Shown here: in pieces, positions 14,524-58,583 of the stretch
Layout: every line of letters begins with the position of its first letter
How positions within the stretch are numbered: position 1 is the stretch's first letter
Assembly (NCBI RefSeq): GCF_932294415.1
Contig: NC_065539.1
Location: forward strand, 33,916,001-33,980,000
Source: Quercus robur
Taxonomy: Eukaryota > Streptophyta > Magnoliopsida > Fagales > Fagaceae
Length of the DNA: 64,000 nucleotides
Direction of reading: 5' to 3'
Position numbers and translations under genes: made by a program
The notes under the pieces: model-generated
Database searches by the model: none
What the model was told of the DNA's origin: nothing
Seen by the model: the letters and a program-made list of their open reading frames with translations, nothing else

Positions 14524-15153
14524 TGTAGGGTCACGTTTTGTAGCCCAATCCCAAGATGTATGGGATCTTGGACCTATGAGCCCTGTACAATAAATTTGTA
14601 GAGGGTGGGTTGAAGAGCTAGGCCTCAGTGCATGAATAACAGTTAATATGGTGTTTATCACAGTCAAGCAAGGATGAACTGAGTTTATCAAAGAAGGTTG
14701 GTCATCGGCACAGTTCGAGGAGCTTTTTCTAGTGCCTCTTCAGTGACCCCCCTTTTCAGCGTCCCCCCCCCCCCCTTTTTATATCAGTTTCCTTCTTCTT
14801 GATTCAGATTCATAGTGCTGATACTTGTCCCATCAGCCCCTCCCCAAAGTTGTTGGGAGTGGTTGTAAAGGCAGAAAAGCATGGCCCTATCAGGTACAGA
14901 GCACTGAATGCAATAATGGCAGCTTTCTCTTAGATATTTCCATTCTTTCCGTTGTCCTTTTCTGTCTTAGTGCTTTTCCTATTCCATGGAATGACCCGAA
15001 GTGTCATTCTCAGTGATAGGCCGTTCCCTTTGTCCTCGGCCATATCTGGCCGAGGAGGGATTATTCCTATGGCCGAGGAGGGGTTCTTCCTTGGACTGGG
15101 TCCTTGGCCCAACGTGTATATTGGTATGGGCTCCCCGGTTTGTTACCCCCACA
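14524..15153 (-). repeat. TL1 3' LTR
   Basis: This LTR is 630 bp. It is the downstream LTR because the polypurine tract abuts it at 15154. It contains a C-homopolymer run near 14765 and a minus-strand TATA-like TATAAAAAAGGGGG nearby. Confidence 0.85.
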
Positions 15154-15446
15154 ATAGCCCCTCGAGATTCTTCTTTTATTCCCCATGGGAGGAAAGGAGG
15201 ATCTCAATGTGATGATAGTCCTTTCGCGCCCATTTTGCACTATGTTTGATTGCAAGACATTCCTTTAGTTTATCCAAGTCGCGTTCCTGCCGTTTCGGCA
15301 CACGAGGCTCGCTTTCATTAAGGTTTTTTTACGAGGTGACGCAAGTCCAACGGCTGAAGACTGCTTTGGAAATTAAGCGAGATTTATCTCGCTTGTAATT
15401 CTTTCTTGGGGATTTGGGTGAATTAATTGCCACCAGGTTTGCCTCC

Positions 15447-15454
15447 TATATAAG
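15447..15454 (+). promoter_or_regulatory. TATA box of the TL1 antisense module
   Basis: 'tatataag' lies 131 bp before the ATG at 15578. Equivalent boxes occur in TL2 (23287-23294) and TL3 (35889-35882, minus) at similar distances from their ORFs. All point against the direction of the retroelement. Confidence 0.55.
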
Positions 15455-15577
15455 ACACATGGGGGGTCATTCTTCTTCATTTACAGATCCTTAAGGTCTA
15501 CGGGAGTTTCAGGCTCTTAACTTTTCAAATGTTCCCAAAGGCCCCACCAAGGTGGTGATTGAGATTTAGGGAATGAA

Positions 15578-15874
15578 ATGGCCAAGGATAAGAGTGAGGG
15601 TGAAGGAACCAAGCCCTCTTCAGATGCCAAGGGCGTCGCCAAGATTCAGAATGACACAATTAAGGTAAGGGAAGCAGAGGCCAAAGATATTTCTCCCCTT
15701 CAACCGGACAAGAAAGAAGTCTCTCTTCCTTCAGCCAAAATCCGAAGCAGGTGTAGGTCACATCAGATTTTTGGTGCGACAAAATTTGGATTTCATCCAG
15801 CGCCGTGTGTCACGCGTGTGCAGATTTGGATTTCTCATCGCCGGTACTATCCATACTTACTTGATCGCTGCTAG
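15578..15874 (+). CDS. TL1 antisense ORF, 98 aa, unknown function
   Basis: I do not recognise this protein. The first 60 residues are charged (MAKDKSEGEG…, rich in K, E and D). At residues about 50-65 comes SLPSAKIRSRCRSHQIFG, which parallels the KIRS/RIRS…FG segment of the antisense ORFs of TL2 and TL3. It lies downstream of a TATA box and upstream of an AATAAA at 16164-16169, opposite in direction to TL1. After that segment the reading frame is probably degraded, since TL1 is old. It could be a decayed form of the ORF carried by the other two elements. Antisense genes are known in Tat/Grande-type elements, which is the basis for the comparison. Confidence 0.4.
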   Translation: MAKDKSEGEGTKPSSDAKGVAKIQNDTIKVREAEAKDISPLQPDKKEVSLPSAKIRSRCRSHQIFGATKFGFHPAPCVTRVQIWISHRRYYPYLLDRC

Positions 15875-16085
15875 AGCAATATTTGCTCGATTGCTGCTAG
15901 AGCAAAATTGTGGATCTGGCGTCTCTGCTTCTTCTCTCCCATCGTCGGTACCATCCATACTTGCTCGATTGCAGCTGGAGCAAAATTGTGGATCTGGCGT
16001 CTCCGCTTCTTCTTCTTTCCTATCGCCGGTACCATCCATACTTGCTCGATTGCTGCTAGAACAAGATTGTGGATTTATCGTTCCC
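15835..16085. repeat. Three short tandem repeats in the TL1 antisense module
   Basis: Three imperfect copies of a roughly 60-95-bp unit share 'taccatccatacttgctcga' or close variants, each followed by 'gctgctagagca'-like sequence. They lie between the antisense ORF and the conserved 3' stem-loop. Confidence 0.7.
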
Positions 16086-16592
16086 ATGGACTGCTTTTCA
16101 TAGTTAGCTTTTGAAACAGGCTTGTCTAAGCCCTTTTATGTACAATGTACTTCTTCTTTATCTAATAAAAAGATGACTTTATTTTACTTTGCAAACCTTT
16201 CCTTTTCTACAATAATTGTTTTATGAATGGGTGTGTTGGTATCTTTTCTTTCGAATAGTATTTAGAATTGATGCCGTTGATGGTAAAGAGTTGTCACCCT
16301 GAATTTATCAAATCTGACGGGCACACCACCGCTAACTTTAAATAAGTTAACTATATAGGACTAATCAGGAAAATAATCGTGTGCTCTACATTGCGAATAG
16401 CGCAACCGCCAGAGGACGTGTAATTTAAAGTAAACAGTCCGAGGGGATCATCGGGTACTAAGGTTCTTTTCAACATTTACAATGATGTTTATAGCGTTAA
16501 CTTCCTTTAAGCGTCTAGTCTGAGGACCGAGGCATGATTGAATTTAGCTTAAACACTTAGAAAGTTGCCAGTGCGTGTTAATTTCCACAAAA

Positions 16593-19545
16593 CAAGTAGT
16601 CCAAGGACCATGCAAGACCTTGGTTCTGTCTAGTACTTAGGTTTTTCTTGAAGTAACTAGTTTCCCTATAGGTTTGAGTCCGAGGACCATGTAAGACCTT
16701 GGTTTTGTCTAGTACTTAGATTCTTCTTGAAGTAGCTAGTTTCCCCATAGGTTTGAGTTCGAGGACCATACAAGACTTTGGTTCTGTCTAGTACTTAGGT
16801 TTTTCATGAAGTAGCTAGTTTTCTCATAGGTTTGAATCCGAGGACCATGCAAGACCTTGGTTCTGTCTAGTACTTAGATTCTTCTTGAAGTAGCTAGTTT
16901 CCCAATAGGTTTGAGTCTGAGGACCATGTAAGATCTTGGTTTTGTATAGTACTTAGATTCTTCTTGAAGTAGCTAGTTTCTCCATAGGTTCGAGTCCGAG
17001 GACCATACAAGACTTTGGTTCTGTCTAGTACTTAGGTTTTTCATGAAGTAGCTAGTTTTCTCATAGGTTTGAATCCGAAGACCATGCAAGACCTTGGTTC
17101 TGTCTAGTACTTAGATTCTTCTTGAAGTAGCTAGTTTCCCCATAGGTTTGAGTCCGAGGACCATGCAAGACCTTAGTTCTGTCTAGTACTTAGGTTTTTC
17201 TTGAAGTAACTAGTTTCCCCATAGGTTTGAGTCCGAGGACCATGCAAGACCTTAGTTCTGTCTAGTACTTAGGTTGTTCTTGAAGTAACTAGTTTCCCCA
17301 TAGGTTTGAGTACGAGGACTATGCAAGACCTTGGTTCTGTCTAGTATTTAGATTCTTCTTGAAGTAGCTAGTTTCCCCATAGGTTTGAGTACGAGGACCA
17401 TGCAAGACCTTGGTTCTGTCTAGTACTTAGATTCTTCTTGAAGTAGCTAGTTTCCCCATAGGTTTGAGTCCGAGGACCATGCAAGACCTTGGTTCTGTCT
17501 AGTACTTATATTCTTCTTGAAGTAGTTAGTTTCCCCATAGGTTTGAGTCCGAGGACCATGCAAGACCTTGGTTCTGTCTAGCACTTAGATTCTTCTTGAA
17601 GTAACTAGTTTCCCCATAGGTTTGAGTCCGAGGACCATGCAAGACCTTGGTTCTGTCTAGTACTTAGGTTGTTCTTGAAGTAACTAGTTTCCCCATAGGT
17701 TTGAGTACGAGGATTATGCAAGACCTTGGTTCTATCTAGTACTTAGATTCTTCTTGAAGTAGCTAGTTTCCCCATAGGTTTGAGTCCGAGAACCATGCAA
17801 GACCTTGGTTCTGTCTAGTACTTAGGTTGTTCTTGAAGTAACTAGTTTCCCCATAGGTTTGAGTACGAGGATTATGCAAGACCTTGGTTCTGTCTAGTAC
17901 TTAGATTCTTCTTGAAGTAGCTAGTTTCCCCATAGGTTTGAGTCCGAGGACCATGCAAGACCTTGGTTCTGTCTAGTACTTAGGTTGTTCTTGAAGTAAC
18001 TAGTTTCCCCATAGGTTTGAGTACGAGGATTATGCAAGACCTTGGTTCTGTCTAGTACTTAGATTCTTCTTGAAGTAGCTAGTTTCCCCATAGGTTTGAG
18101 TCCGAGGACCATGCAAGACCTTGGTTCTGTCTAGCACTTAGATTCTTCTTGAAGTAACTAGTTTCCCCATAGGTTTGAGTCCGAGGACCATGCAAGACCT
18201 TGGTTCTGTCTAGTACTTAAGTTGTTCTTGAAGTAACTAGTTTCCCCATAGGTTCGAGTATGAGAATTATGCAAGACCTCGGTTCTGTCTAGTACTTAGA
18301 TTCTTCTTGAAGTAGCTAGTTTCCCCATAGGTTTGAGTCCGAGGACCATGCAAGACCTTGGTTCTGTCTAGTATTTATATTCTTCTTGAAGTAATTAGTT
18401 TCCCCATAGGTTTGAGTCCGAGGACCATGCAAAACCTTGGTTCTGTCTAGCACTTAGATTCTTCTTGAAGTAACTAGTTTCCCCATAGGTTTGAGTCCGA
18501 GGACCATGCAAGACCTTGGTTCTGTCTAGTACTTAGGTTGTTCTTGAAGTAACTAGTTTCCCCATAGGTTTGAGTACGAGGATTATGCAAGACCTTGGTT
18601 CTGTCTAGTACTTAGATTCTTCTTGAAGTAGCTAGTTTCCCCATAGGTTTAAGTCTGAGGACCATGCAAGACCTTGGTTCTGTCTAGTACTTATATTCTT
18701 CTTGAAGTAGTTAGTTTCCCCTTAGGTTTGAGTCCGAGGACCATGCAAGACCTTGGTTCTGTCTAGTACTTAGATTCTTTTTGAAGTAACTAGTTTCCCC
18801 ATAGGTTTGAGTCCGAGGACCATGCCAGACCTTGGTTCTGTCTAGTACTTAGGTTGTTCTTAAAGTAACTAGTTTCCCCATAGGTTTGAGTAAGAGGATT
18901 ATGCAAGACCTTGGTTCTATCTAGTACTTAGATTCTTCTTGAAGTAGCTAGTTTCCCCATAGGTTTGAGTCCGAGGACCATGCAAGACCTTGGTTCTGTC
19001 TAGTACTTATATTCTTCTTGAAGTAGTTAGTTTCCCCATAGGTTTGAGTCCGAGGACCATGCAAGACCTTGGTTCTGTCTAGTACTTAGATTCTTCTTGA
19101 AGTAACTAGTTTCCCCATAGGTTTGAGTCCGAGGACCATGCAAGACCTTGGTTCTGTCTAGTACTTAGGTTGTTCTTGAAGTAACTAGTTTCCCCATAGG
19201 TTTGAGTACGAGGATTATGCAAGACCTTGGTTCTGTCTAGTACTTAGGTTGTTCTTGTAGTAACTAGTTTCCCCATAGGTTTGAGTCCGAGGACCATGCA
19301 AAACCTTGGTTCTGTCTAGCACTTAGATTCTTCTTGAAGTAACTAGTTTCCCCATAGGTTTGAGTCCGAAGACCATGCAAGACCTTGGTTTTGTCTAGCA
19401 CTTAGATTCTTCTTGAAGTAACTAGTTTCCCCATAGGTTTGAGTCCGAGGACCATGTAAAACCTTGGTTCTGTCTAGCACTTAGATTCTTCTTGAAGGAA
19501 CTAGTTTCCCCATAGGTTTGAGTCCGAGGACCATGCAAGACCTTG
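16593..19545. repeat. TL1 tandem array, 79-bp period, about 37 copies
   Basis: Starts of 'gtttgagtcc' at 17146, 17225, 17304 and 17383 give a period of 79 bp. The core GAGGACCATGCAAG plus 'ccttggttctgtc' is shared with the arrays of TL2 and TL3. Variant monomers ('tacgaggattatg' versus 'tccgaggaccatg'; 'gattcttc' versus 'ggttgttc') recur in groups, so blocks of several monomers were amplified. Read on the minus strand the array lies directly downstream of the primer binding site region. Confidence 0.92.
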
Positions 19546-19857
19546 GTTCTCGACTTCTTTCCCCAATGGGGATTCATCAAGCCAGGTTACTAGACCTGCG
19601 AGAACTAACCCCTTGACATATGTACGGGGCATATACTTGATGTCAGAAGCCCCTAGAACTATGCCCCATTTAGCAACCCTCTCCCAGTAATCAGTACCTC
19701 GAAGAGTAGCCCTGAGCGGAAGCTGAGTTATGACAATAACTGTGTATTCTTGGAAATGATGGGGAAGCTTCCGTGTAGCATGCAGCATCGCCAAAATGGT
19801 CCTCTCGAGGGACTCTTGCTGATAGGAACTTAATCCCACCATGGTTAACCGTTGCAC
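19540..19857 (-). pseudogene. Fragment of Ty3/Gypsy RNase H in the TL1 leader
   Basis: This is an open frame in the sense direction of TL1, about 20 bp after the primer binding site. Its order of motifs matches the end of a plant Gypsy RNase H domain: an alternating 'E…LAM…ATRKL' helix, 'HHFQEYTVIVIT', 'QLPLR', 'KWGIVLGASDIKYMPRT' and 'VKGLVLAGLV'. No reverse transcriptase, protease, integrase or gag is seen in TL1. The frame runs on into the tandem array, where it ends. It is likely a remnant left by an internal deletion or recombination rather than a working gene. Confidence 0.6.
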
Positions 19858-19895
19858 TCACTAACACATGAGCTCTCCCCACAGATGGCGTCAAT

Positions 19896-20516
19896 TGTAG
19901 GGTCATGTTTCGCAGCCCAAACCCAAGATGTATGGGATCTTGGACCTATGAGCCCTGTACAATAAATTTGTAGAGGGTGGGTCGAAGAGTTAGGCCTCAG
20001 TGCATGGATAACAGTTAATATAGTGTTTATCACAGTCAAGCAAGGATGAACTGAGTTTATCAAAGAAGGTTGGTCCTCGGCACAGTTCGAGAAGCTTTTT
20101 CTAGTGCCTCTTCAGTGATCCCCCTTTTCAGCGTCCCCCTCCCCCCGTTTATATCAGTTTCCTTCTTCTTGATTCAGATTCATAGTGCTGATACTTGTCC
20201 CATCTGCCCCTCCCCAAAGTTGTTGGAAGTGGTTGTAAAGGCAGAAAAGCATGGCCCTATCAGGTACAGAGTACTGAATGCAATAATGGCAGCTTTCCCT
20301 TAGATATTTCCATTCTTTCCGTTGTCCTTTTCTGTCTTAGTACTTTTCCTATTCCATGAAATGACCTGGAGTGCCACTCTCAGTGATAGGCCGTTCCCTT
20401 TGTCCTCAGCCATACCTAGTCGAGGAAGGATTCTTCCCATGGTTGAGGAGGGGTTCTTCCTTGGACTGGGCCCAACGTGTATATTAGTATAGGCTCCCCA
20501 GTCCGTTACCCCCACA
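19896..20516 (-). repeat. TL1 5' LTR
   Basis: This LTR is 621 bp. It adjoins the primer binding site at 19877-19895. The 9-bp length difference from its partner comes from small indels. Confidence 0.85.
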
Positions 20517-22192: not shown

Positions 22193-22950
22193 TGTAGGGA
22201 CACAAAATCTTCAGCGGCCCATCAACGTTGTTGGGCTCGCGCAAGGAAAATCCCTCACAATGATATTTGTAGAGAGTGGGCTTAACAAAAGGCCAGCGTT
22301 GGGTCGCGGGGCGGCATCTCGGGCCGGACTACAGGCATACCGACATGAGGAAGAGCTTCGGGCTGGATATTCAGGCCCTTCAATCTTGTATCTAGGAGGA
22401 TTTGGCTCTTCGGATATGATCCGAGGCGTGAGGGCGCTGTTCCCGGTCACCCATCGGTGGGATTTTAGGTGATGTCCGGCGTGTCTTATCCAGACCCTCA
22501 CTTTTATCAAGTCTTTCTCCAGAAGCCAGATGGGAGTCCCCTCTTTGGTCACATAACATTCTCTTTTATACTAGCCTACGTTAGTTGTCCTTCGTCCACG
22601 TGTAGGGTCGATCTTTCCGGGACAGATATCTGTCCCATCAGTCTAGTCCCAAATTAGCTGGAGATGATCCATAAAGCCTAAGATCCCGGCTCTGTTAGGG
22701 GCAGTGTCATGTCAAGGAAGGGTATTAAGGACTATTTCCATGAGATATTTTCTGACCTCTCAAGCTCGCCTGTATCCCATTTTCGTCAGTGGGGTTCTGG
22801 GCTTTCCGAGGACGAAGTGGTCCTCGGACGTGTCTTTGAGCCATATCGAGCTCACTACTTTTGGGCTTGGGCCCTGGCCTCCTTTAGTTTGGGGGCCTGT
22901 GGATTCCCTATAAGTGAGCGAGCCGGGCCCATAGACTCTTGGGCCCCACA
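22193..22950 (-). repeat. TL2 3' LTR
   Basis: On the minus strand this LTR begins TGTGGGGCCC and ends CCCTACA. A minus-strand TATA box (TATAAAAGAG, near 22560) marks the promoter side. Short open frames repeated identically at 29184-29628 are LTR sequence, not genes. Confidence 0.9.
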
Positions 22951-23286
22951 ATAGCCCCTCGAAACCCTGCTGTCCAACGTCCTGGTTGGAGAGGTGGGTT
23001 TCGGTAACTCCGAGCCTTAACTGCGGCTCATTTAATTCGGCCCTTGATCAACGTTGGTGACTCTTCACCTCCCCGAGGAATGCGCCGGTCTACGAGCCGT
23101 TTTTCCCAGATTTACGTACGTTGCCGTTATGCCGCGTGGTTATCTGCAACGTGCCTTTAATCTTTTACCATTTACGAGACCTTCTGGATGTAGCGGTTAC
23201 TGATGGTGTGGGAGAACGAAGCGACGCGTTATACTCTGGATTTCCCTGGGGATTTGAATGTGTCACATACCCTCTTCTTCGTCCCC

Positions 23287-23294
23287 TATATAAA
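23287..23294 (+). promoter_or_regulatory. TATA box of TL2 antisense module 1
   Basis: 'tatataaa' followed by 'gagagaaga' lies 123 bp before the ATG at 23410. The TL3 counterpart has 'ttatataaag' in the same relative place. No TATA-like match is claimed for the opposite strand here. Confidence 0.6.
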
Positions 23295-23409
23295 GAGAGA
23301 AGACACAGGGTGACTTCTTCATATCTGAGTTCTTCGCGTTCTTCCCTGAATCCACTTTCTCCATCCCGTTACTCCTCCTTCTATAATACTTATCTCATAG
23401 TAATCCACC

Positions 23410-23748
23410 ATGAACAAATCCTTCCTTTCCCAGAAACGCCATATCCCAGCAAAACTCGAGATGGCTCGGTCTGGGCAAGGATGGCGGAGGCTTAAGATTT
23501 GCCTCCCCATTCTTTTAGCCAGAATCCGAAGCAGGGACTCGTCATACCCCACTTCTGGTGTGACTGAGTCGGAAACCTCCCTTGTCATCTCCATCCGCTC
23601 TCTCACGAGCATACCTAATAAGGCTCCCCTTCTCCCTCTTTTGCTCCTTTTACTTTCTTTTCATTGCTTCACTCTTCTTCTCCTCCTTCCCGCTCATGTC
23701 CTCCATCTTCTTTTTCCCTTGCATTCTTCAGTAACAAGAGCTTGCTGA
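23410..23748 (+). CDS. TL2 antisense ORF 1, 112 aa, unknown function
   Basis: The function is unknown to me. The N-terminal half is conserved with the TL3 ORF at 35740-35513: M(N/K)K at the start, SQK at 7-9, the invariant block LEMARSGQGWRRLKICL at about 16-32, then an (A/S)(R/K)IRS(R/K)DSS segment and a TE motif. Beyond residue 70 the TL2 protein is Leu-rich (LLPLLLLLLSFHCF) and could form a membrane segment, whereas TL3 stops earlier, so the C-terminus may not be real. It is transcribed, if at all, from a TATA box at 23287 towards AATAAA at 23985, antisense to TL2. It is basic and small, with no enzyme motif visible. Confidence 0.5.
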   Translation: MNKSFLSQKRHIPAKLEMARSGQGWRRLKICLPILLARIRSRDSSYPTSGVTESETSLVISIRSLTSIPNKAPLLPLLLLLLSFHCFTLLLLLPAHVLHLLFPLHSSVTRAC

Positions 23749-23937
23749 AGTGCTTCCATGTCTTCCAATTCGTCTTCCTTCTCCTTCATTATTTTTGTAT
23801 AAGGATCTTCTCCTGATATGAGCAGTACTGAGGCATAGATTTCAGAAAGACTTTGAAGGCGAATTCAGAGGACACCTGATGGTTTATTTACTTGTATTAC
23901 GGATATTGTTATTGTTTTAGCAGTTCATTTTTTGTAT

Positions 23938-23990
23938 AGGCTTGTTTAAGCCCTTCCTTGTATGTTGTAACCATTTGTTATATTAATAAA
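23938..23990 (+). terminator. 3' region of TL2 antisense module 1: stem-loop and poly(A) signal
   Basis: A stem-loop GGCTT-GTTT-AAGCC is followed about 35 bp later by AATAAA (23985-23990). The same stem-loop and spacing occur in TL1 (near 16120-16169, loop GTCT) and TL3 (near 35135-35085, minus). Confidence 0.55.
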
Positions 23991-24399
23991 AGTTATTGTT
24001 ATTCTACTTCTTGTGTCTTGTTTATATATTTTAATAAGCATAAAAGCGCTGCTCGGCATAATAGTATAGCATTTGAATCAATAATGACTAAGACCAAAGT
24101 AATCCTTAATAAAAAGATGCCACGATAACTTTAAAGAGATTACTATTCAACATAACAATCCGACCAGTGAAGAATGAGACTTATCTTAAAGTTAGCCGTG
24201 ATGTGTGTTGAATGCTCGATAAGGTGTAGGAAGTACTTGTCCGAGGACATATTACCCACCGGGTGAATGGCCTCCTTAGGTTGACGATCATTAGGTTATT
24301 CCGCCATCTCCATGATACGCGAGCCTTAACCTTTTCCAGTATTTAAACCGAGAAATTTCTTCATTCGGGCAGTTGATTTCCCAAGAAGCCTGAGTCCGA

Positions 24400-25315
24400 G
24401 GACTTTGCAAAATCTGGGTTCTGTTCAAGACTTATGCGTTTTGTCTTATGTACTTGACTTTTCTCTTAGGCTTGAATCCGAGACTTGTGTCCGTATTGGT
24501 ACTTGGTTTTCCCTTTTTAACTTGAGTCCGAGGACCATGCAAGCCTTAGGTTCAGTTCGAGACTTGTGTCTACGTCAGTACTTGGTTTTCCCTTTTAGCT
24601 TGAGTCCGAGGACCATGCAAGCCTCAGGTTCTGTCCAAGATCAATGTCCGCATCAGTGCTTGGTTTTCCCTTTTAGCTTGAGTCCGAGGACCATGCAAGC
24701 CTTGGGTTCTGTCCAAGACCAATGTCCGCATCAGTGCTTGGTTTTCCCTTTTAGCTTGAGTCCGAGGACCATGCAAGCCTTGGGTTCTGTCCAAGACCAA
24801 TGTCCGCATCAGTGCTTGGTTTTCCCTTTTAGCTTGAGTCCGATACTTGTGTCTTTATCGGTACTTGGTTTTCCCTTTTAGCTTGAGTCCGAGGACCATG
24901 CAAGCCTCAGATTCTGTCCGAGACCAATGTCTGCATCAGCACTTGGTTTTCCCTTTTAGCTTGAGTCCGAGGACCATGCAAGCCTTAGGTTCTGTCCGAG
25001 ACCAATGTCTGCATCAGTACTTGGTTTTCCCTTTTAGCTTGAGTCCGGGGACCATGCAAGCCTTAGGTTCTGTCCGAGACCAATGTCTGCATCAGTACTT
25101 GGTTTTCCCTTTTAGCTTGAGTCCGAGGACCATGCAAGCCTTAGGTTCTGTCCGAGACCAATGTCTGCATCAGTACTTGGTTTTCCCTTTTAGCTTGAGT
25201 CCGGGGACCATGCAAGCCTTAGGTTCTGTCCGAGACCAATGTCTGCATCAGTACTTGGTTTTCCCTTTTAGCTTGAGTCCGAGGACCATGCAAGCCTTAG
25301 GTTCTGTCCAAGACT
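24400..25315. repeat. TL2 array 1, 78-bp period, about 10-11 copies
   Basis: Monomers start with 'ttgagtccg' at 24961, 25039 and 25117, so the period is exactly 78 bp, that is 26 codons in every frame. This explains the long open frames here on both strands. The core GAGGACCATGCAAG is shared with the other arrays. Early monomers (from 24381) are degenerate and later ones nearly identical. Confidence 0.92.
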
Positions 25316-25692
25316 TTGAGTTCAGATCTTCCCTTTCATTGAGCATTTCCCGAGGTGCCAAACAGGGTGTCCCTAGGCCTTCACGCCAAGAACCCGCGGA
25401 TCAAGATACATTTCTGCAAACTCTGGCCACGCAGTACTTCTCTGACGCCCCAGGGATCGAGGCGCGCCTTCACGAGGCTTCTTGAGTCTCTAGACTGCAG
25501 TTGACGTTGGAAGTTGAGCCAAAGCCACTTTGTCTGTAGTGTTCCTTGGGACACCGCGTGAGTTGACTGCCATCATCTTGTCTTTTCAAATAAATAGGAG
25601 GGAGAGAGGGTTGCTTTATATATACACCCATCCTTTTATTTTTCTCTCATATCACGCTCCCCATATCCGTAGCTCTCCTTTCTTGGCATAAC

Positions 25693-25932
25693 ATGTGGAA
25701 AGCGAGGGTTGGGAAGAAAGAACCTTCTCCGCCGCAGAAGCGCCGTGTCCTCATGAGGCTTATAACAGTAAGGTATGGGCACAGGAAGCACAAGTTCAGA
25801 AGAGTACTCCATCTCCACCGAGGGGGAACGGCGTCTCTCCCTCTTTTAGTCAAAATCCGAAGCAGGCTCTGTTCATGCCAGCACTTTGGTATGTCAGAAG
25901 AAAGATTCTCCGCCATCAGCGCCTCTGCTTAG
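25693..25932 (+). CDS. TL2 antisense ORF 2, 79 aa, unknown function
   Basis: I do not recognise this basic protein. It aligns over its first 55 residues with the TL3 ORF at 33677-33510: a shared AR residue pair at 4-5, KE at 9-10, then SPPQ, RRVL, RL, VRYG, HKF and finally LLVKI. Many differences between the two DNAs fall at third codon positions (for example agg/gga-type changes with the residue kept), which suggests past selection on the protein. TL2 reads on for 22 residues (…RSRLCSCQHFG) where TL3 has a stop. A TATA-like 'caaataaata' lies about 108 bp upstream in both, and AATAAA follows at 26214-26219. It runs antisense to TL2. Confidence 0.5.
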   Translation: MWKARVGKKEPSPPQKRRVLMRLITVRYGHRKHKFRRVLHLHRGGTASLPLLVKIRSRLCSCQHFGMSEERFSAISASA

Positions 25933-26523
25933 CAGCAGGCGAATATTTAGAGAAAGCCCCTCAGTTTCCCACTCCCTGCATCTTTCCTTCAACGGTGCCA
26001 GGCTCAAGTTGGGTTTCTTTGGCTGCCTGAGTTATGGGCATGTAGGAGCGCGGGGGAAGAATAAGGTCTCGGAGCTGTAACCAACCTTTCCTCCGACATA
26101 CCTCCTCGGCTTTCTCCAGCTTTCTTGTATTTTTCTTTTTCTTGCTTCTGTAGTAAGCTTTGACGTAGGCTGATTCCAGCTTTTCATTGTACTCTGTACT
26201 ATTTCTTCGTTGTAATAAAAATGGAAATTGACTTACATGTTTTAAGTGTTGATCTATTGGGCAATACCACTTTGTGAACGAATGTGCTCTATGTATGCGT
26301 TGTTTTGAAAATATTTGTAACAAAGCTATTTTGAAGTATAATCTAACCAACTCTCATCTACCAGCACTATCAGGTATTACATCGATAATTTGTAATAAAT
26401 CGAACTTAGGAAACTGACCGAGATATCAGTTGTGTATTCTGTGGTGAGCGCATGAATATCGTCCAAGGCTGATGATTTCTAAGCAATCCATCTGAGCAAT
26501 TGACTGGGACATAGGGGACTCCG

Positions 26524-28644
26524 ATGACGCTTTCTTGTATTCGGTTTCCCCATAGGCTTCGGTCCGAGGACCATGCAAGGCCTTGGTTCTGTCCATTACT
26601 TTTAAGATGTCCTCTTTGTACTTGGTTTCCCCACAGGCTTGGGTCCGAGGACCATGCAAGGCCTTGGTTCTGTCCATTACTTATAAGAGTTCTTCGTTGT
26701 ACTTGGTTTCCCCACAGGCTTGGGTCCGAGGACCATGCAAGGCCTTGGTTCTGTCCATTACTTATAAGAGTTCTTCGTTGTACTTGGTTTCCCCACAGGC
26801 TTGGGTCCGAGGACCATGCAAGGCCTTGGTTCTGTCCATTACTTTTAAGATGTCCTCTTTGTACTTGGTTTCCCCACAGGCTTGGGTCCGAGGACCATGC
26901 ATGGCCTTGGTTCTGTCCATTACTTATAAGAGTTCTTCGTTGTACTTGGTTTCCCCACAGGCTTGGATCCGAGGACCATGCAAGGCCTTGGTTCTGTCCA
27001 TTACTTTTAAGATGTCCTCTTTGTACTTGGTTTCCCCACAGGCTTGGGTCCGAGGACCATGCAAGGCCTTGGTTCTGTCCATTACTTATAAGAGTTCTTC
27101 ATTGTACTTGGTTTCCCCACAGGCTTGGGTCCGAGGACCATGCAAGGCCTTGGTTCTGTCCATTACTTTTAAGATGTCCTCTTTGTACTTGGTTTCCCCA
27201 CAGGCTTGGGTCCGAGGACCATGCAAGGCCTTGGTTCTGTCCATTACTTATAAGAGTTCTTCGTTGTACTTGGTTTCCCCACAGGCTTGGGTCCGAGGAC
27301 CATGCAAGGCCTTGGTTCTGTCCATTACTTTTAAGATGTCCTCTTTGTACTTGGTTTCCCCACAGGCTTGGGTCCGAGGACCATGCAAGGCCTTGGTTCT
27401 GTCCATTACTTATAAGAGTTCTTCGTTGTACTTGGTTTCCCCACAGGCTTGGGTCCGAGGACCATGCAAGGCCTTGGTTCTGTCCATTACTTTTAAGATG
27501 TCCTCTTTGTACTTGGTTTCCCCACAGGCTTGGGTCCGAGGACCATGCAAGGCCTTGGTTCTGTCCATTACTTATAAGATGTCCTCTTTGTACTTGGTTT
27601 CCCCACAGGCTTGGGTCCGAGGACCATGCAAGGCCTTGGTTCTGTCCATTACTTATAAGAGTTCTTCGTTGTACTTGGTTTCCCCACAGGCTTGGGTCCG
27701 AGGACCATGCAAGGCCTTGGTTCTGTCCATTACTTTTAAGATGTCCTCTTTGTACTTGGTTTCCCCACAGGCTTGGGTCCGAGGACCATGCAAGGCCTTG
27801 GTTCTGTCCATTACTTATAAGAGTTCTTCATTGTACTTGGTTTCCCCACAGGCTTGGGTCCGAGGACCATGCAAGGCCTTGGTTCTGTCCATTACTTTTA
27901 AGATGTCCTCTTTGTACTTGGTTTCCCCACAGGCTTGGGTCCGAGGACCATGCAAGGCCTTGGTTCTGTCCATTACTTATAAGAGTTCTTCGTTGTACTT
28001 GGTTTCCCCACAGGCTTGGGTCCGAGGACCATGCAAGGCCTTGGTTCTGTCCATTACTTTTAAGATGTCCTCTTTGTACTTGGTTTCCCCACAGGCTTGG
28101 GTCCGAGGACCATGCAAGGCCTTGGTTCTGTCCATTACTTATAAGAGTTCTTCGTTGTACTTGGTTTCCCCACAGGCTTGGGTCCGAGGACCATGCAAGG
28201 CCTTGGTTCTGTCCATTACTTTTAAGATGTCCTCTTTGTACTTGGTTTCCCCACAGGCTTGGGTCCGAGGACCATGCAAGGCCTTGGTTCTGTCCATTAC
28301 TTATAAGAGTTCTTCGTTGTACTTGGTTTCCCCACAGGCTTGGGTCCGAGGACCATGCAAGGCCTTGGTTCTGTCCATTACTTTTAAGATGTCCTCTTTG
28401 TACTTGGTTTCCCCACAGGCTTGGGTCCGAGGACCATGCAAGGCCTTGGTTCTGTCCATTACTTATAAGAGTTCTTCGTTGTACTTGGTTTCCCCACAGG
28501 CTTGGGTCCGAGGACCATGCAAGGCCTTGGTTCTGTCCATTACTTTTAAGATGTCCTCTTTGTACTTGGTTTCCCCACAGGCTTGGGTCCGAGGACCATG
28601 CAAGGCCTTGGTTCTGTCCATTACTTATAAGAGTTCTTCGTTGT
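26524..28644. repeat. TL2 array 2, 81-bp monomers in a 162-bp dimer pattern, about 26 copies
   Basis: 'gggtccgagg' occurs at 26641, 26722 and 26803, giving a period of 81 bp (27 codons). Two monomer types, one with 'ttttaagatgtcctctttg' and one with 'ttataagagttcttcgttg', alternate almost throughout. The exceptions are two adjacent second-type monomers near 26690-26780 and one hybrid monomer near 27571. The 707- and 694-residue open frames across this array are by-products of the 81-bp period, not proteins. Confidence 0.95.
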
Positions 28645-28887: not shown

Positions 28888-28907
28888 TTCCCACAGACGG
28901 CGCCAGT

Positions 28908-29665
28908 TGTAGGGACACAAAATCTTCAGCGGCCCATCAACGTTGTTGGGCTCGCGCAAGGAAAATCCCTCACAATGATATTTGTAGAGAGTGGGCTTAA
29001 CAAAAGGCCAGCGTTGGGTCGCGGGGCGGCATCTCGGGCCGGACTACAGGCATACCGACATGAGGAAGAGCTTCGGGCTGGATATTCAGGCCCTTCAATC
29101 TTGTATCTAGGAGGATTTGGCTCCTCGGATATGATCCGAGGCGTGAGGGCGCTGTTCCCGGTCACCCATCGGTGGGATTTTAGGTGATGTCCGGCGTGTC
29201 TTATCCAGACCCTCACTTTTATCAAGTCTTTCTCCAGAAGCCAGATGGGAGTCCCCTCTTTGGTCACATAACATTCTCTTTTATACTAGCCTACGTTAGT
29301 TGTCCTTCGTCCACGTGTAGGGTCGATCTTTCCGGGACAGATATCTGTCCCATCAGTCTAGTCCCAAATTAGCTGGAGATGATCCATAAAGCCTAAGATC
29401 CCGGCTCTGTTAGGGGCAGTGTCATGTCAAGGAAGGGTATTAAGGACTATTTCCATGAGATATTTTCTGACCTCTCAAGCTCGCCTGTATCCCATTTTCG
29501 TCAGTGGGGTTCTGGGCTTTCCGAGGACGAAGTGGTCCTCGGACGTGTCTTTGAGCCATATCGAGCTCACTACTTTTGGGCTTGGGCCCTGGCCTCCTTT
29601 AGTTTGGGGGCCTGTGGATTCCCTATAAGTGAGCGAGCCGGGCCCATAGACTCTTGGGCCCCACA
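28908..29665 (-). repeat. TL2 5' LTR
   Basis: This LTR is identical in length to its partner (758 bp) and differs by one base in my comparison. It adjoins the primer binding site at 28888-28907. Confidence 0.9.
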
Positions 29666-29888: not shown

Positions 29889-30262
29889 GGCCCGTGTAAT
29901 GCACGGCTTAATAAAAAATATTTTGATAATATATTTAAATTTAATAACAAATAAAATGAATAAAGAATTAATTCAAAATTTAAGATTAAAAAATAAATTG
30001 TACTTATACACTTAAAAGAAATTTAATTTTTATTTCTTATTTTGATATTTAAATCATTTATTTTAGTGTTGATTTCTTTCAAATGGTTATAAGTTATATA
30101 AACTCTAAACCAGCATATGTATACATATGTAAATTTCTAAATTAATAATAAATAAAAATATAATACTCTAACTTAATGTAACATTCTAACTTACTAATAA
30201 ATAAATATAACATCCTAACTTAAAGTAATGTTTGTAATTGTATTGTACTTTAGCCTTTAAGA

Positions 30263-30302
<40 letters not shown>

Positions 30303-30671: not shown

Positions 30672-31314
30672 TGTGGGGCCCAATAATTTATGGGCCAGGC
30701 CCACTTATTCATGGGGAGTCCTAAGGCCCAAGCCGAAGAAGGCTATAGTCCAAACTCAATAATGTAAAGCACAAAATGGCCCGGAGAAGCAGCCGAGGAC
30801 AGTCCAGTCCTCGGCTGACCCAAAGCTCCACCGAGAAGAAGGGCAAAAACGGTATAGGGACAAACTTGAAAGAAAATCTAAAATATCTAGGAAAGGCTGC
30901 CCTTACTACCCTCCCCATACACGGCTCTGCACCTAACAGAGCCGTATTCTTCAGCTTTATCAACCACTCCCAACGACTCTGGTCTTGGACTGACGGGACA
31001 AGTATCAGTCTTGGAAAGGTCGACCCTACACGTGGACGAAAGAAAGCGAACGCAGGCTAGTATAAAAGAAAAAGTAAGTAATCTGGATAAGGGGGCTGGA
31101 AAAAATGGCCAAAAAGAAAGGGCCTCCCAGTCCACCTCCAGGAGAAAGACTCCAGGGGTGAAGACACCTTAAACACATATGAACACCACAAAAACCCACC
31201 GCTGGGTAACCAAGGCCTAGCCTTTCAAACCCACTCTCTACAAATGATATTGTCTGGGCCTTTTTACGTGCGAACCCAACACTGTTGTGGTTCGTTGCGT
31301 ATCGCGTCCCTACA
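30672..31314 (+). repeat. TL3 5' LTR
   Basis: This LTR begins TGTGGGGCCC and ends CCCTACA, like TL2. A TATA-like 'agtataaaag' lies near 31058 and marks the sense promoter. Confidence 0.9.
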
Positions 31315-31334
31315 ATTGGCACCGTCTGTGGGAA

Positions 31335-31546: not shown

Positions 31547-31570
31547 AAAATAAATAAATAAATGAACAAA

Positions 31571-32610
31571 TACAAGTTTTGGACAGAACCAAGGCCTTGT
31601 ATGGTCTTCGGACTCAAGCCTCTAAGGAAACCAACTACTTACAAAGAAAATACAAGTTTTGGACAGAACCAAGGCCTTGTATGGTCTTCGGACTCAAGCC
31701 TCTAAGGAAACCAACTACTTACAAAGAAAATACAAGTTTTGGACAGAACCAAGGCCTTGTATGGTCTTCGGACTCAAGCCTCTACGGAAACCAACTACTT
31801 ACAAAGAAAATACAAGTTTTGGACAGAACCAAGGCCTTGTATGGTCTTCGGACTCAGGCCTCTGGGGAAACCAACTACTTACAAAGAAAATACAAGTTTT
31901 GGACAGAACCAAGGCCTTGTATGGTCTTCGGACTCAAGCCTCTGGGGAAACCAACTACTTACAAAGAAAATACAAGTTTTGGACAGAACCAAGGCCTTGT
32001 ATGGTCTTCGGACTCAAGCCTCTGGGGAAACCAACTACTTACAAAGAAAATACAAGTTTTGGACAGAACCAAGGCCTTGTATGGTCTTCGGACTCAGGCC
32101 TTTGGGGAAACCAACTACTTACAAAGAAAATACAAGTTTTGGACAGAACCAAGGCCTTGTATGGTCTTCGGACTCAAGCCTCTGGGGAAACCAACTACTT
32201 ACAAAGAAAATACAAGTTTTGGACAGAACCAAGGCCTTGTATGGTCTTCGGACTCAAGCCTCTGGGGAAACCAACTACTTACAAAGAAAATACAAGTTTT
32301 GGACAGAACCAAGGCCTTGTATGGTCTTCGGACTCAGGCCTTTGGGGAAACCAACTACTTACAAAGAAAATACAAGTTTTGGACAGAACCAAGGCCTTGT
32401 ATGGTCTTCGGACTCAAGCCTCTGGGGAAACCAACTACTTACAAAGAAAATACAAGTTTTGGACAGAACCAAGGCCTTGTATGGTCTTCGGACTCAAGCC
32501 TCTGGGGAAACCAACTACTTACAACGAAAATACAAGTTTTGGACAGAACCAAGGCCTTGCATGGTCTTCGGACTCAAGCCTCTGGGGAAACCAACTACTT
32601 ACAAGGAAAA
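31571..32610. repeat. TL3 array 1, 80-bp period, 13 copies, partly trimeric
   Basis: 'acaagttttgg' occurs at 31572, 31652 and 31732, so the period is 80 bp. Because 80 is not a multiple of three, the frame rotates through all three phases and gives three overlapping open frames of 330-350 codons; none is a gene. Monomers with 'caggcct' recur near 31857, 32097 and 32337, the latter two as 'caggcctttgg', separated by two 'caagcctctgg' monomers: a 240-bp higher-order unit. Confidence 0.93.
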
Positions 32611-33509
32611 ACTACATTACATGGACCTTAGGATCTATCCGAGGAAAAACTCTCCACTAACAATTGGGTTAATTCCTAAATTGCGAGGATCCTTAAGTCT
32701 GCTCTCAGATCTTCAGCACCAAAGGGATCGATGCAATATAGAGCAATATGTTGCCTGAAACACAATCGGAGTTCCCTACTGCTCAGTCACCTCCTCGGAT
32801 GGATTATTTAGAGATTATCATTCTCGGACGGTATTCTCGCACTTATTACAGAATATTCAACTGTTACCTCGGTTAGTTTCCTAAATTTACCTTACTATGA
32901 ATTATCGTTATAATGCCTGGTAGTGTCGGTAAATCAGAATTAGTTGGATTATGTCTCAAGTTTTCCTGCTCTAAGTATCATTGAAGTAAAACACACATGG
33001 AGCACACCCATTCACAAAGTAGTGTTGCAAAAAGAAAGGTATTCAAAACAAGTAAATAAATTTCCATTTTTACTAAAACAAAGAAATAGTACAGCGTACA
33101 ATGAAAAGCTAGAATCAGCTTGTATCAAAGCTAATTACATAATCGAAAAGAAAGGTACAAGAGAATAAGATAAAGCCGAGGAGGTGGCACAGAGGAGAGG
33201 TTGGCTGCTGCTTCAAGACCTTGTTCTTCCTCAATACTTTTACATGCCCATAACTCAGGCAGCAAAAGAACCCAGCTTGGGGCCTGCACCATCGAAGAAA
33301 AGGTGCAGAGAGAGCCCAGCTTCAGGCTAGCGTAGCTGAAGAAAAGGTGCAGGGAACCCAACTTGAGGCTCACATCGTTAAAGGAAAGGTGCAGGGAGCC
33401 GGAAGTTGTGGAGCCTACCCCAAAATTTGCCTGCGACAAGGCAGACGGCGCTGATGGCGGAGAATCTTTCTTCTGACACACCAAAATTCTGGCATGAACA
33501 GAACCTGCT

Positions 33510-33677
33510 TCAGATTTTGACTAAAAGAAGGAGAAACACCATTTCCCCTTTGTCGAAACGGAATATTCTCTTGAATTTATGCCTCCTTTGCCCGTACCTC
33601 ACTTCTTTGAGTCTCAGGAGGACACGGCGCCTTTGTGGAGGAGAGAGTTCCTTCACCCCACCCCGCGCCTCAAACAT
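33510..33677 (-). CDS. TL3 antisense ORF 2, 55 aa, unknown function
   Basis: This is the counterpart of the TL2 ORF at 25693. It begins MFEARGGVKE and contains SPPQRRRVLLRL, VRYGQRRHKFKR and ends in LLLLVKI. The stop TGA at 33512-33510 replaces the CGA found in TL2, a C-to-T type change that probably shortened the protein. A TATA-like 'taaataaata' lies about 100 bp upstream (near 33775). A downstream minus-strand frame (33484-33131) starting MVCQKKDSPPSAP is also shared with TL2 at 25886, but in a different phase, so which frame is translated is open. Confidence 0.45.
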   Translation of the reverse strand: MFEARGGVKELSPPQRRRVLLRLKEVRYGQRRHKFKRIFRFDKGEMVFLLLLVKI

Positions 33678-34075
33678 GTTATACTAAGGGAGGATAGCAC
33701 CGAATATTGGAGTTGTGATTTGGGAGGAAACTGAAGGATTTGTGTATAGGTAAAGCAACTTCCTCTCCTATTTATTTAAAAAGATAAGGTGGTGGCATTT
33801 AATTCACGCAGCGTCCCAAGGAACGCTACAGACAAAATGGCTTCGGCTCAATTTCCAACGCCACCTGCAACCATGAGATTAGAGGATTCTCGTGAAGGCG
33901 CACCTCGAACACTGGGACACCAAAGGGTACCGCGTGACCGAAGACTACAGAAATGCCTCTTAATTTGTGGGCCTAGTGAATTCGCGACCCAGGCCCATTC
34001 TGCGTGGGAGCCCAGGGGCTACGGCCCACGCCGAGGAATAGCCATTGCCAAGGACAACCTCCTGCTCGGCACCTA

Positions 34076-34710
34076 TACAAGTTTTGGACAGAACCAAGGT
34101 CTTGTATGGTCCTCGGACTCAAGCCTCTGGGGAAACCAACTACTTACAACGAAAATACAAGTTTTGGACAGAACCAAGGCCTTGTATGGTCATCGGACTC
34201 AAGCCTCTGGGGAAACCAACTACTTACAACGAAAATACAAGTTTTGGACAGAACCAAGGCCTTGTATGGTCCTCGGACTCAAGCCTCTGGGGAAACCAAC
34301 TACTTACAACGAAAATACAAGTTTTGGACAGAACCAAGGCCTTGTATGGTCTTCGGACTCAAGCCTCTGGGGAAACCAACTACTTACAACGAAAATACAA
34401 GTTTTGGACAGAACCAAGGCCTTGTATGGTCCTCGGACTCAAGCCTCTGGGGAAACCAACTACTTATAACGAAAATACAAGTTTTGGACAGAACCAAGGC
34501 ATTGCATGGTCCTCGGACTCAAGCTTATGGGGAAACCAACTACTTACAAAGAAAATACAAGTTTTGGACAGAACCAAGGCATTGCATGGTCCTCGGACTC
34601 AAGCCTATGGGGAAACCAACTACTTACAAAGAAAATACAAGTTTTGGACAGAACCAAGTCATCGCATGGTCCTCGGACTCAAACCTATGGGGAAACCAAC
34701 TACTTGGATG
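34076..34710. repeat. TL3 array 2, 80-bp period, 8 copies
   Basis: This array has the same monomer as array 1 and lies between the two antisense modules. Later monomers carry 'gcattgcatgg' and 'aagcctatgg' variants. The open frames here are products of the repeat. Confidence 0.92.
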
Positions 34711-35289
34711 GGGAAAGTCCTTGGCTCAAATACTGTAAAAGGTTAAGGCCAATAAGAGTGTTAAAAAGATAGTGAAACGCCCCACTACTCAGTAGCCTAA
34801 GGGGGCTGTTCATTTTTGCGGGTGATATGTCTTCGGATGGTTACTTCCTACACCGCATAGAGCATCCAGTTCTCATCTCGGCATGTTTTGGGGTAAGTAT
34901 CGTTCTTCACAGGTCGGCATTGTTGTGCCAAACAATTCTATTAAAGTTATGGTGACATCTTTTTATTAGCAAGTATTTTGGCTCTAGTTGTCATTGATTC
35001 AAATGCTATATTATTGTGCCGAACAGCACTTGCAAATTTGTAAAAACATAGAGATAGAACATGCGAAGTAAAATGATAACAATTTTTATTAATATGAAGA
35101 TGTATTACAACGTACAAAGAGGGGCTTAAACAAGCCTATACAAAAGGTGAACTGCCGAAACAATATAAAAAAAAAAAATTAGCAATACAACTAAGTAAAT
35201 GGTCAGGTGTCTTTTAAACTTGTCTCCGAAGTCCCTCCTAACTCTGCCTCGGTATCGCCCATATTGAGAGAAGGACCTTCTTTAGAAAA

Positions 35290-35480
35290 AGATGGAGGAG
35301 ATGAATGAGGAAGATGGAGGAGATGAATGAAAAGAAGGAGGAGAAGAAGAGGGAAGAGATGAAAAGAAAGAAAAAGGAGCAAAAGAGGGAGAAGGAAAAG
35401 CACCAAGATGGATCTGGTGGTGGAAAGAAGAAGAAAGAGAGGCAAAAGGAGGCGCCAGTGAACAAAGAGAGGAAGAAGCA
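35290..35480. repeat. Purine-rich (GAA/GGA) low-complexity tract in TL3
   Basis: The plus strand is almost all A and G, giving a lysine/glutamate-rich frame on one strand and a Leu/Phe/Ser-rich frame on the other. It corresponds to the Leu-rich tail of the TL2 antisense ORF 1 and probably reflects expansion of that region rather than a separate gene. Confidence 0.6.
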
Positions 35481-35512
35481 GGGGCACTTAGTCCCTGCCC
35501 CAGTCCTGACTC

Positions 35513-35740
35513 CTAACACACTGGTGCCATGTTAGATATGCTCATGAGGGAGCGGGTGGTACTGATAATGGGTGTCCTCGGCTCAGTCATGCCGAAAGTG
35601 TGACGTGACGAGTCCTTGCTTCGGATTTTGGCTGAAAGGAAGGTGAGGCAAATCTTGAGTCTCCGCCATCCTTGCCCTGACCGAGCCATTTCGAGCTTTA
35701 TTAGAACATGGTATTTTTGGGAGGGGAATGGTTTCTTCAT
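35513..35740 (-). CDS. TL3 antisense ORF 1, 75 aa, unknown function
   Basis: This is the counterpart of the TL2 ORF at 23410. It has MKK, SQK, the invariant block LEMARSGQGWRRLKICL (about residues 16-32), AKIRSKDSS and MTE. A TATA box (tatataaa, minus strand, 35889-35882) lies 142 bp upstream. The stem-loop GGCTT-GTTT-AAGCC lies near 35135-35122, followed by AATAAA at 35090-35085. It runs antisense to TL3. The function is unknown, no catalytic motif is visible, and it ends before the Leu-rich tail of the TL2 version. Confidence 0.5.
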   Translation of the reverse strand: MKKPFPSQKYHVLIKLEMARSGQGWRRLKICLTFLSAKIRSKDSSRHTFGMTEPRTPIISTTRSLMSISNMAPVC

Positions 35741-36226
35741 TGCTTATGACTGTGGTGAACGTATTACAGGTTGAGGTATAATCAGAAGGTAAAAGTAAAC
35801 TCTGGGAGGAATCTAAGGATTTCAGATTTCTGAGGGATTAAAGGGATTCATATATGGGAGAAACAACTCTCGTCTTTCCTCTTTATATAAGGGATGAAGA
35901 GGAGGGTACTAAATGTGTTCAGATCTCCAAGTGAACCTGCAAACAAGAATGTGCCCGTTCCGCTCCCCCACACCATCAGTAACCATTGAATCTGAGAGGT
36001 CTCGTGAAGGGAAACCATTAAAGACATGCTTCGGATAACCAAACGGCATGAACGTATCGTGAATAAATCAAGAAGGACATCTCGTAGACCGGTGCATTTC
36101 CTGGGCAAGTGGAGAATTGCCAACGTCAGTGAAAGGTTGAATTAAATGAGCCGTAATAAAGGCTCGGTATTATCAAAACCCCCCTCTCCAACCAGGAGGT
36201 CGGACAGCATGGTTTTGAGGGGCTAT

Positions 36227-36869
36227 TGTGGGGCCCAATAATTTATGGGCCAGACCCACTTATTCATGGGGAGTCCTAAGGCCCAAGCCGAAGAAGGCTA
36301 TAGTCCAAACTCAATAATGTAAAGCACAAAATGGCTCGGAGAAGCAGCCGAGGACAGTCCAGTCCTCGGCTGACCTAAAGCTCCACCGAGAAGAGGGGCA
36401 AAAACGGTATAGGGACAAACTTGAAAGAAAATCTAAAATATCTAGGAAAGGCTGCCCTTACTACCCTCCCCATACACGGCTCTGCACCTAACAGAGCCGT
36501 ATTCTTCAGCTTTATCAACCACTCCCAACGACTTTGGTCTTGGACTGACGGGACAAGTATCAGTCTTGGAAAGGTCGACCCTACACGTGGACGAAAGAAA
36601 GCGAACGCAGGCTAGTATAAAAGAAAAAGTAAGTAATCTGGATAAGGGGGCTGGAAAAAATGGCCAAAAAGAAAGGGCCTCCCAGTCCACCTCCAGGAGA
36701 AAGACTCCAGGGGTGAAGACACCTTAAACACATATGAACACCACAAAAACCCACCGCTGGGTAACCAAGGCCTAGCCTTTCAAACCCACTCTCTACAAAT
36801 GATATTGTCTGGGCCTTTTTACGTGCGAACCCAACACTGTTGTGGTTCGTTGCGTATTGCGTCCCTACA
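36227..36869 (+). repeat. TL3 3' LTR
   Basis: This LTR has the same length as the 5' LTR. It is preceded by the polypurine tract and followed by the acttc duplication. Confidence 0.9.
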
Positions 36870-58578: not shown

Positions 58579-58583
58579 TCACA

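Follow-up and report, generated by a model that had tools for sequence, protein, structure and literature searches.

What are elements whose interior consists mostly of sequence reading against their own direction, and how do they move without gag-pol? This question is raised by a 64,000-nucleotide stretch of the Quercus robur genome (C6:33916001-33980000, here called the window), which holds three adjacent insertions bounded by long terminal repeats (LTRs), namely TL1 and TL2 on the minus strand and TL3 on the plus strand. TL1 contains one antisense module and TL2 and TL3 contain two each, referred to as a and b (thus TL2a, TL2b, TL3a and TL3b). We consider it probable that TL1-TL3 are non-autonomous LTR retrotransposons which arose from Retand-type (Tat) Ty3/gypsy elements through loss of gag-pol, are moved by related pol-bearing elements and carry their antisense units as non-coding sequence. 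All genome searches were run against the 786-Mb assembly, and of their thousands of first-pass candidates only the top 40 or 150 received a score.

The termini of the three elements, with the primer binding site (PBS), are located in the window as follows.

14524..15153, minus strand: 3' LTR of TL1, from the paired-LTR comparison
19896..20516, minus strand: 5' LTR of TL1, with the PBS directly left of it
22193..22950, minus strand: 3' LTR of TL2, from the paired-LTR comparison
28908..29665, minus strand: 5' LTR of TL2, with the PBS directly left of it
30672..31314, plus strand: 5' LTR of TL3, its last 100 bp or so 78-87% identical to the LTR end in six of the eight helper candidates
31315..31333, plus strand: PBS of TL3, ATTGGCACCGTCTGTGGGA
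36227..36869, plus strand: 3' LTR of TL3

In all three elements the PBS is a variant of TTGGCGCCGTCTGTGGG at the expected position, the polypurine tract (PPT), GAGGGGCTAT, abuts the 3' LTR, and the insertion is flanked by a 5-bp target site duplication (GGTAA in TL1, ATATG in TL2, ACTTC in TL3). Together with the paired LTRs, the features that identify an LTR retrotransposon are thus present in each of them, as an earlier note on this DNA had described. The elements measure 6.0 kb (TL1), 7.5 kb (TL2) and 6.2 kb (TL3), with internal regions of 4.7-6.0 kb. Between the two LTRs of one element, 37 of 621 aligned positions differ in TL1, 1 of 761 in TL2 and 6 of 644 in TL3, the alignments of TL2 and TL3 running 1-3 bp past the LTR. 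Judged from the latter two values, at least some members of this group inserted very recently. In line with this, searches with the DNA of modules a and b recovered, among the best 40 places each, several that are 99-100% identical and lie on several contigs, which supports the mobility assumed in the earlier note.

No long gag-pol frame was found in the interiors of TL1-TL3, where frames above 150 amino acids (aa) are wholly or partly translations of tandem arrays. The elements lack gag and reverse transcriptase (RT), and their pol remnant amounts at most to an RNase H stub. The proposed absence of gag-pol within these boundaries therefore holds for any long frame, whereas TL1 retains the following piece of pol in an open reading frame (ORF).

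19501..19842, minus strand: sense ORF of TL1 (113 aa) next to the PBS, containing the RNase H stub of pol and with its end extending into the array

This stub, which a Pfam search alone did not recognise, aligns over 82 aa at 65% identity (E 3e-37) with the RNase H in a pol frame of one of the candidate helpers described below. The best 150 of the 7,038 candidates in the stub search comprise short frames (approximately 57-89% identical), belonging to other gutted elements and in some cases containing stops, as well as long frames (approximately 57-67% identical), the longest of which measures 1,104 aa. The idea that the stub is a selected mini-gene was rejected, as its ratio of non-synonymous to synonymous substitution rates (dN/dS), 0.62, lies among the values of the remaining five frames (0.47-0.77). 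This set comprised 21 sequences, TL1 and 20 matches chosen as listed without stops, hence open frames in it prove nothing. As a separate observation, twenty diverged loci begin the same RNase H stub shortly after the PBS (L066-L085), suggesting one old deletion behind many families. LARD-type (large retrotransposon derivative) elements are non-autonomous LTR elements of more than 4 kb which lack a functional gag-pol and bear signs of mobility; TL1-TL3 fit this definition by their length, the missing gag-pol frame and the near-identical LTRs of TL2 and TL3.

The regions upstream of eight of the long-frame RNase H matches provide candidate helpers, which are known from their pol frames, LTR ends, PBS and two 3' regions, and which we label as candidate Retand-like elements. 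A PBS-like site follows the LTR end in all eight (four with the strict motif, four with variants). In six of them the LTR end matches that of TL3 over 81-101 bp at 78-87% identity, and the other two resemble stretches of the TL1 LTR at 73-76%. One candidate yields RVT_1 (112 bits) and RT_RNaseH at a locus with an 851-aa open frame; one has an LTR of approximately 795 bp and approximately 10.4 kb between its LTRs, as taken from coordinates of a partly read locus. Both 3' regions present array, antisense ORFs with TATA, PPT and 3' LTR in that order, and their 3' LTRs are 97.1% and 95.3% identical to the 5' LTRs of the same elements. The TATAAA of these two helpers lies 239-241 bp inside the LTR, compared to 293-337 bp in TL1, TL2a and TL3a. 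Hence, the helper that the earlier note had postulated now has pol-bearing candidates with related ends, and the parallel it drew to Tat-lineage elements is matched by two of them.

The second link to these helpers is provided by the tandem arrays of the TLs.

16598..19550, plus strand: array of TL1, 79 bp x 37
24488..25314, plus strand: array 1 of TL2, 78 bp, approximately 10 copies in two pieces, containing the recombination breakpoint described below
26535..28632, plus strand: array 2 of TL2, 81 bp x 26
31568..32610, minus strand: array of TL3 module b, 80 bp x 13
34075..34705, minus strand: array of TL3 module a, 80 bp x 8

The five arrays are related to one another by sequence and adjoin the antisense region, a trait of the Retand lineage. 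The helper array unit aligns with that of TL1 with a score of 45, against 13.9 ± 2.4 (maximum 33) for 300 shuffles, and with the unit of TL2 array 1 with a score of 31 (shuffle maximum 21). Because the helper array unit aligns with that of TL1, and because order and ends match, TL1 can be read as a Retand-type element without gag-pol; likewise, the 3' order of the helpers and an array core homologous to that of TL1 suggest that the TLs are Retand-type elements with internal deletions.

Several observations weigh against this derivation. Array 2 of TL2 and both TL3 arrays do not individually rise above shuffles when compared with the helper unit, although they are nevertheless related to the TL1 array. 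The helper LTRs match the TLs only partly, and none of the eight matches the LTR of TL2, so that a helper for TL2 was not found. The two helpers contain no exact copy of the conserved 23-bp block described below. Their antisense ORFs score 24.9 and 23.0 bits with PF04195 (TRP28), where the cut-off is 26.2, and the bodies of the TL modules have no above-shuffle similarity to these helper antisense genes. Only the approximately 50 bp beside the PPT yielded one above-shuffle case, i.e. TL3a versus one helper (score 38, shuffle maximum 32); the remaining scores are 34 for TL3a versus the other helper (maximum 35), 30 and 27 for TL1 (maxima 30 and 31), and 26 and 32 for TL2a (maxima 29 and 33).

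To describe the antisense modules themselves, the following features are needed.

15154..16597, plus strand: antisense module of TL1, with the PPT at its left end
15447..15453, plus strand: TATATAA of TL1; CTATATAAGACACA is identical in 8 of 8 aligned TL1-family copies
15729..15751, plus strand: conserved 23-bp block of TL1, CTTCAGCCAAAATCCGAAGCAGG
16164..16169, plus strand: AATAAA of the TL1 module
22951..24480, plus strand: TL2 module a, with TATATAA at 23287-23293, the block with one change at 23513-23535 and AATAAA at 23985-23990
25315..26534, plus strand: TL2 module b, with TATATATA at 25617-25624, the block at 25844-25866 and AATAAA at 26214-26219
32611..34074, minus strand: TL3 module b, with an ORF of 55 aa at 33510-33677 (minus strand), the block with one change and AGTAAA at 33069-33074
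34706..36226, minus strand: TL3 module a, with TATATAA at 35883-35889, an ORF of 75 aa at 35513-35740 (minus strand), the block with one change, AATAAA at 35085-35090 and the PPT at its right end

Read from the PPT against the direction of the element, a module consists of a TATA or TATA-like box, a short ORF and a poly(A) signal, and leads into an array. This arrangement, with one module in TL1 and two each in TL2 and TL3, is as the earlier note had it. Its signals are found in most modules, whereas in TL3b the TATA-like string is degraded and AGTAAA replaces AATAAA. The TATATAA is located at +293 (TL1), +333 (TL2a) and +337 (TL3a) from the PPT end, TL2b has the TATA-like string TATATATA, and the poly(A) signal follows at approximately +900 to +1,140. 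Near full-length alignments were obtained for TL2a/TL3a (score 586) and TL2b/TL3b (score 704). The remaining eight pairs among the five modules score 39-67, all above 30 shuffles (maxima 27-31), and in seven of these eight the best alignment falls either in the poly(A) region or in a stretch at approximately +520 to +610 that surrounds TTTTAGYCAAAATCCGAAGCAGG, that of TL3a/TL3b lying elsewhere. In several module pairs, not all, BLAST recovers the second block too. Among the five window modules the exact 23-bp block is found in TL1 and TL2b only, the other three being one base off. Across lineages, the modules retain the poly(A) region, the block and, in the outer unit, the position of the TATA box. 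We also noted a small tetraloop hairpin (GGCTT-GTTT-AAGCC and variants) ahead of the poly(A) signal, for which a search pattern matched 41 of 45 sequences and which by eye displays compensatory changes between lineages. As a strong structure this hairpin was rejected, since shuffled sequences fold as well as the five regions of 85 nt tested (z -0.7 to 0.7).

The modules recur in the genome, in which the earlier note had proposed to search for copies sharing PPT and LTR. Exact searches returned 2,575 matches of the 23-bp block and 2,638 of the PPT/LTR junction, while both reversed controls returned none. Distance statistics are based on the first 100 listed of the 2,575 block matches and on 85 of 100 listed junctions (of 2,638), all on contig C1; the block pattern being exact, one-base variants are not counted. 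For 41 of these 100 blocks the distance to a listed junction is 569-619 bp, and in all 41 the block is antisense to it. Among the other 59, 20 have a junction at 1.6-2.9 kb, as expected of second modules, and 39 have none within 6 kb among the 85 junctions used. Same-strand block pairs 1.57-2.24 kb apart number 26, opposite-strand pairs zero, and in 23 of the 26 the C-type lies nearer the PPT and the T-type next, as in TL2 and TL3. The 100 blocks fall into 74 places, which, if the contig is typical, corresponds to approximately 1,900 places genome-wide, fragments included. As examples, regions L009-L015 contain TL1-like elements (rearranged or partial in L012, L013 and L015) and L016 an LTR only, while L061 is a TL2-like element with 99.3% identical LTRs and the same order of module a, array, module b and array. 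Two of the TL1-like elements, L009 and L011 (C3 near 8.59 and 8.75 Mb), have nearly identical modules, suggesting segmental duplication.

Comparison of such copies revealed that TL2 is a recombinant. In three further elements, chosen for a near-identical module b, the LTR is 97.0-97.6% and module a 90.6-90.9% identical to TL2, compared to 99.7% for the start of module b, the part of it that was retrieved. Along TL2, identity to one of the three (locus L097) is 94-100% up to approximately 23,093, then 80-98% up to approximately 24,490, 93-96% with many gaps up to approximately 24,900, and 98-100% thereafter. This profile indicates that module a was exchanged, with one breakpoint inside array 1. 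The exchange likely occurred by template switching during reverse transcription, with gene conversion as the alternative route.

How TL2 and TL3 came by two modules bears on the first competing explanation, in which they descend from the fusion of two single-module families. The duplication of one unit, as claimed in the earlier note, is not established: modules a and b have only short blocks in common, so that an old duplication and a two-family fusion are both possible. We give fusion somewhat less than an even chance. It is favoured by the same scarcity of shared sequence and by the movement of module a between backbones; yet the shared blocks occupy similar positions in a and b, as duplication predicts, and the constant order of the listed pairs is explained by neither origin.

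A further explanation, which we regard as rather unlikely although it deserves weight, holds that the units are inert hitch-hiking relics, whose signals are conserved only through the youth of active lineages. Many copies are indeed 99-100% identical, the ORFs evolve in a neutral-like manner (see below) and the poly(A)-site regions fold as shuffles do. The module copies compared here are the best-scoring matches, a choice that favours young copies. Against the explanation, two blocks stay alignable between modules which are otherwise unalignable, and the distance of the block from the PPT is nearly fixed in different subfamilies. Recent copying alone does not account for these two findings. 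At the opposite end, the antisense unit could be a selected non-coding RNA gene, the lineage having dropped its proteins while it kept and then doubled a promoter-block-poly(A) cassette that acts on the family itself (e.g. in packaging or silencing titration), with the arrays as exchange points between subfamilies; we regard this as improbable.

Still less probable is the reading of the block as a 3' splice site, with pyrimidine tract, YAG and conserved exon start, at which an antisense RNA would be spliced. A pyrimidine run and YAG are kept in all five window modules despite base changes, and the block variant with AG changed to AA has 48 genome matches versus 2,575. On the other hand, a control in which G is changed to A at another position of the block gave 95 matches, only twice 48 and partly shared by descent, and by eye no donor site is conserved across modules.

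The antisense ORFs, finally, measure 98 (TL1), 112 (TL2a), 79 (TL2b), 75 (TL3a) and 55 aa (TL3b). Those of TL1 and TL2 are located as follows.

15578..15874, plus strand: antisense ORF of TL1, 98 aa; of eight family copies, six have a frame above 60 aa (two of these shortened) and two do not
23410..23748, plus strand: antisense ORF of TL2 module a, 112 aa; uninterrupted in all 15 copies, dN/dS 1.05
25693..25932, plus strand: antisense ORF of TL2 module b, 79 aa; uninterrupted in all 16 copies (TL3b excluded), dN/dS 0.98

The conservation of these ORFs in other copies, whose absence together with a lack of antisense transcripts the earlier note would have taken as a refutation, is mixed: they are open in all sampled copies of modules a and b but shortened in TL3 and missing in part of the TL1 family. 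In the 15 copies of the module a ORF, 54 sites vary, distributed 26/14/14 on the codon positions; the other five frames have stops in every copy and dN/dS values of 0.29-0.96. For module b the other frames give 0.46-0.84, and two of them are also open in 15 and 16 of the 16 copies (0.46 and 0.83). TL3a and TL3b were excluded from the copy sets and compared separately as distant pairs, where TL2b/TL3b and TL2a/TL3a yield 0.46-0.47 and the other frames values as low (0.43-0.46). Given the variable sites, random change would leave no stop with a probability of 0.17 (module a) and 0.10 (module b). A dN/dS near 1 among copies thus provides no evidence for importance of a protein, in a test to which young copies give little power, and the youth of the copies may be the main reason why no stops interrupt the frames. 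None of the five antisense ORFs has a Pfam match at cut-off (a single Myb-like match, with E 0.24, is at chance level), and none matches PF04195 (TRP28) at E up to 1. Likewise, none of 30 TRP28 loci (approximately 3.1 kb each) is similar to parts of the TLs at E up to 1e-3. We therefore rejected the TL modules as a recognisably shortened TRP28 gene, given these 30 loci and the lack of above-shuffle similarity to the two helper antisense genes outside the short stretch by the PPT. The antisense cargo of the earlier note, taken as protein, consequently finds no support in substitution pattern, Pfam or TRP28 likeness. That the ORFs encode small basic proteins under selection (with a KIRSR-like motif), as a reduced Retand/Grande accessory protein, is the least likely of the explanations, for although the frames are uniformly open in both module sets (in module a without gap columns), a similar motif is seen by eye in TL1, TL2a, TL2b and TL3a, and the distant pairs have low ratios, there is no signal of constraint in the ORF frame by this noisy test while other frames, mostly with stops, score lower, other frames are equally low in the distant pairs, absence of stops is unsurprising at the probabilities given, the TL3b ORF ends at 55 aa, the ORF is missing in 2 of 8 TL1-family copies and Pfam is silent at cut-off.

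Origin from Retand-type elements with mobilisation by pol-bearing relatives would then proceed as follows. Ancestors of the Retand type (Tat, Ty3/gypsy) would have lost gag-pol internally, while the TLs would have kept what helper proteins need in cis, i.e. LTR end, PBS and PPT, together with the 3' layout of the helper, in which an antisense unit with TATA and poly(A) site lies between an array and the 3' LTR; TL2 and TL3 carry two such units. Pol-bearing relatives in this genome would supply the proteins that copy full-length TL RNA and insert the product. Transcription of the antisense unit is probable. The unit would persist without a coding role, its promoter, block and poly(A) signals being conserved, and units may be reshuffled by template switching in which the arrays participate.

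Apart from the TLs, the window contains broken long frames at 57220-62708 (plus strand), which by eye only resemble a plant long interspersed nuclear element (endonuclease-like, RT and RNase H-like). A direct repeat with an offset of approximately 1.1 kb occupies 11308-13872 (11308-12752 versus 12417-13872, 88%), pieces of which recur near 37892-38500, and nested 21-bp and 103-bp tandem repeats (AAAACGCCACTATAGGGCTTA) lie at 450-866. The left flank of TL2 (21912-22113) matches its right flank (29672-29883) at 90% over approximately 200 bp, and 13886-14086 matches 29890-30092 at 91%, as if the TL insertions sit in copies of older repeats. ARAGORN detected no tRNA in the window.

Why Retand-type elements retain antisense genes and arrays by the 3' LTR is called unknown in two publications (PMC11963269, PMC7264820). 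In this respect the TLs represent a natural deletion experiment: gag-pol is gone and TRP28 undetectable, while antisense TATA, block, poly(A) signal and array persist in many copies. They thereby make it testable whether antisense RNA, not protein, matters, and the breakpoint of TL2 suggests that arrays may serve as exchange points for modules.

Among known systems, long non-autonomous LTR elements such as Dasheng and the LARDs are thought to use the proteins of a relative, Dasheng reportedly being the non-autonomous partner of RIRE2. The TLs resemble them in length and lack of autonomy; neither Dasheng nor the LARDs are known to be built from antisense units with arrays. No element of the TL design is described in the titles and abstracts of the open-access literature searched.

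Closer in layout are the Retand elements, which, according to a recent survey (Vicient 2025, PMC11963269), have antisense ORFs between pol and 3' LTR and LTRs of 315-1,194 bp; TRP28 was recorded for 97% of the clusters and an array for roughly half of them, while 10 of 63 clusters lack domains, though only some domains each. The TLs have the same layout by the 3' LTR, and the LTR and inter-LTR distance given above for one helper fall inside the survey ranges. Unlike the Retand elements of this survey, the TLs lack gag, have at most an RNase H stub and internal regions of 4.7-6.0 kb, give no TRP28 match and, in TL2 and TL3, carry two antisense units. An antisense ORF near the 3' LTR is likewise present in maize Grande (gene23) and rice RIRE2, and gene23 is reported in a review to be transcribed in antisense from its own promoter (PMC7264820). 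In contrast to Grande as portrayed there, with gag-pol and a coding gene23, the TLs have no gag-pol and ORFs without sign of selection. What the TLs add to the Retand/Grande background is hence an extreme form of non-autonomous derivative, in which one or two antisense units and the adjoining arrays make up most of the interior.

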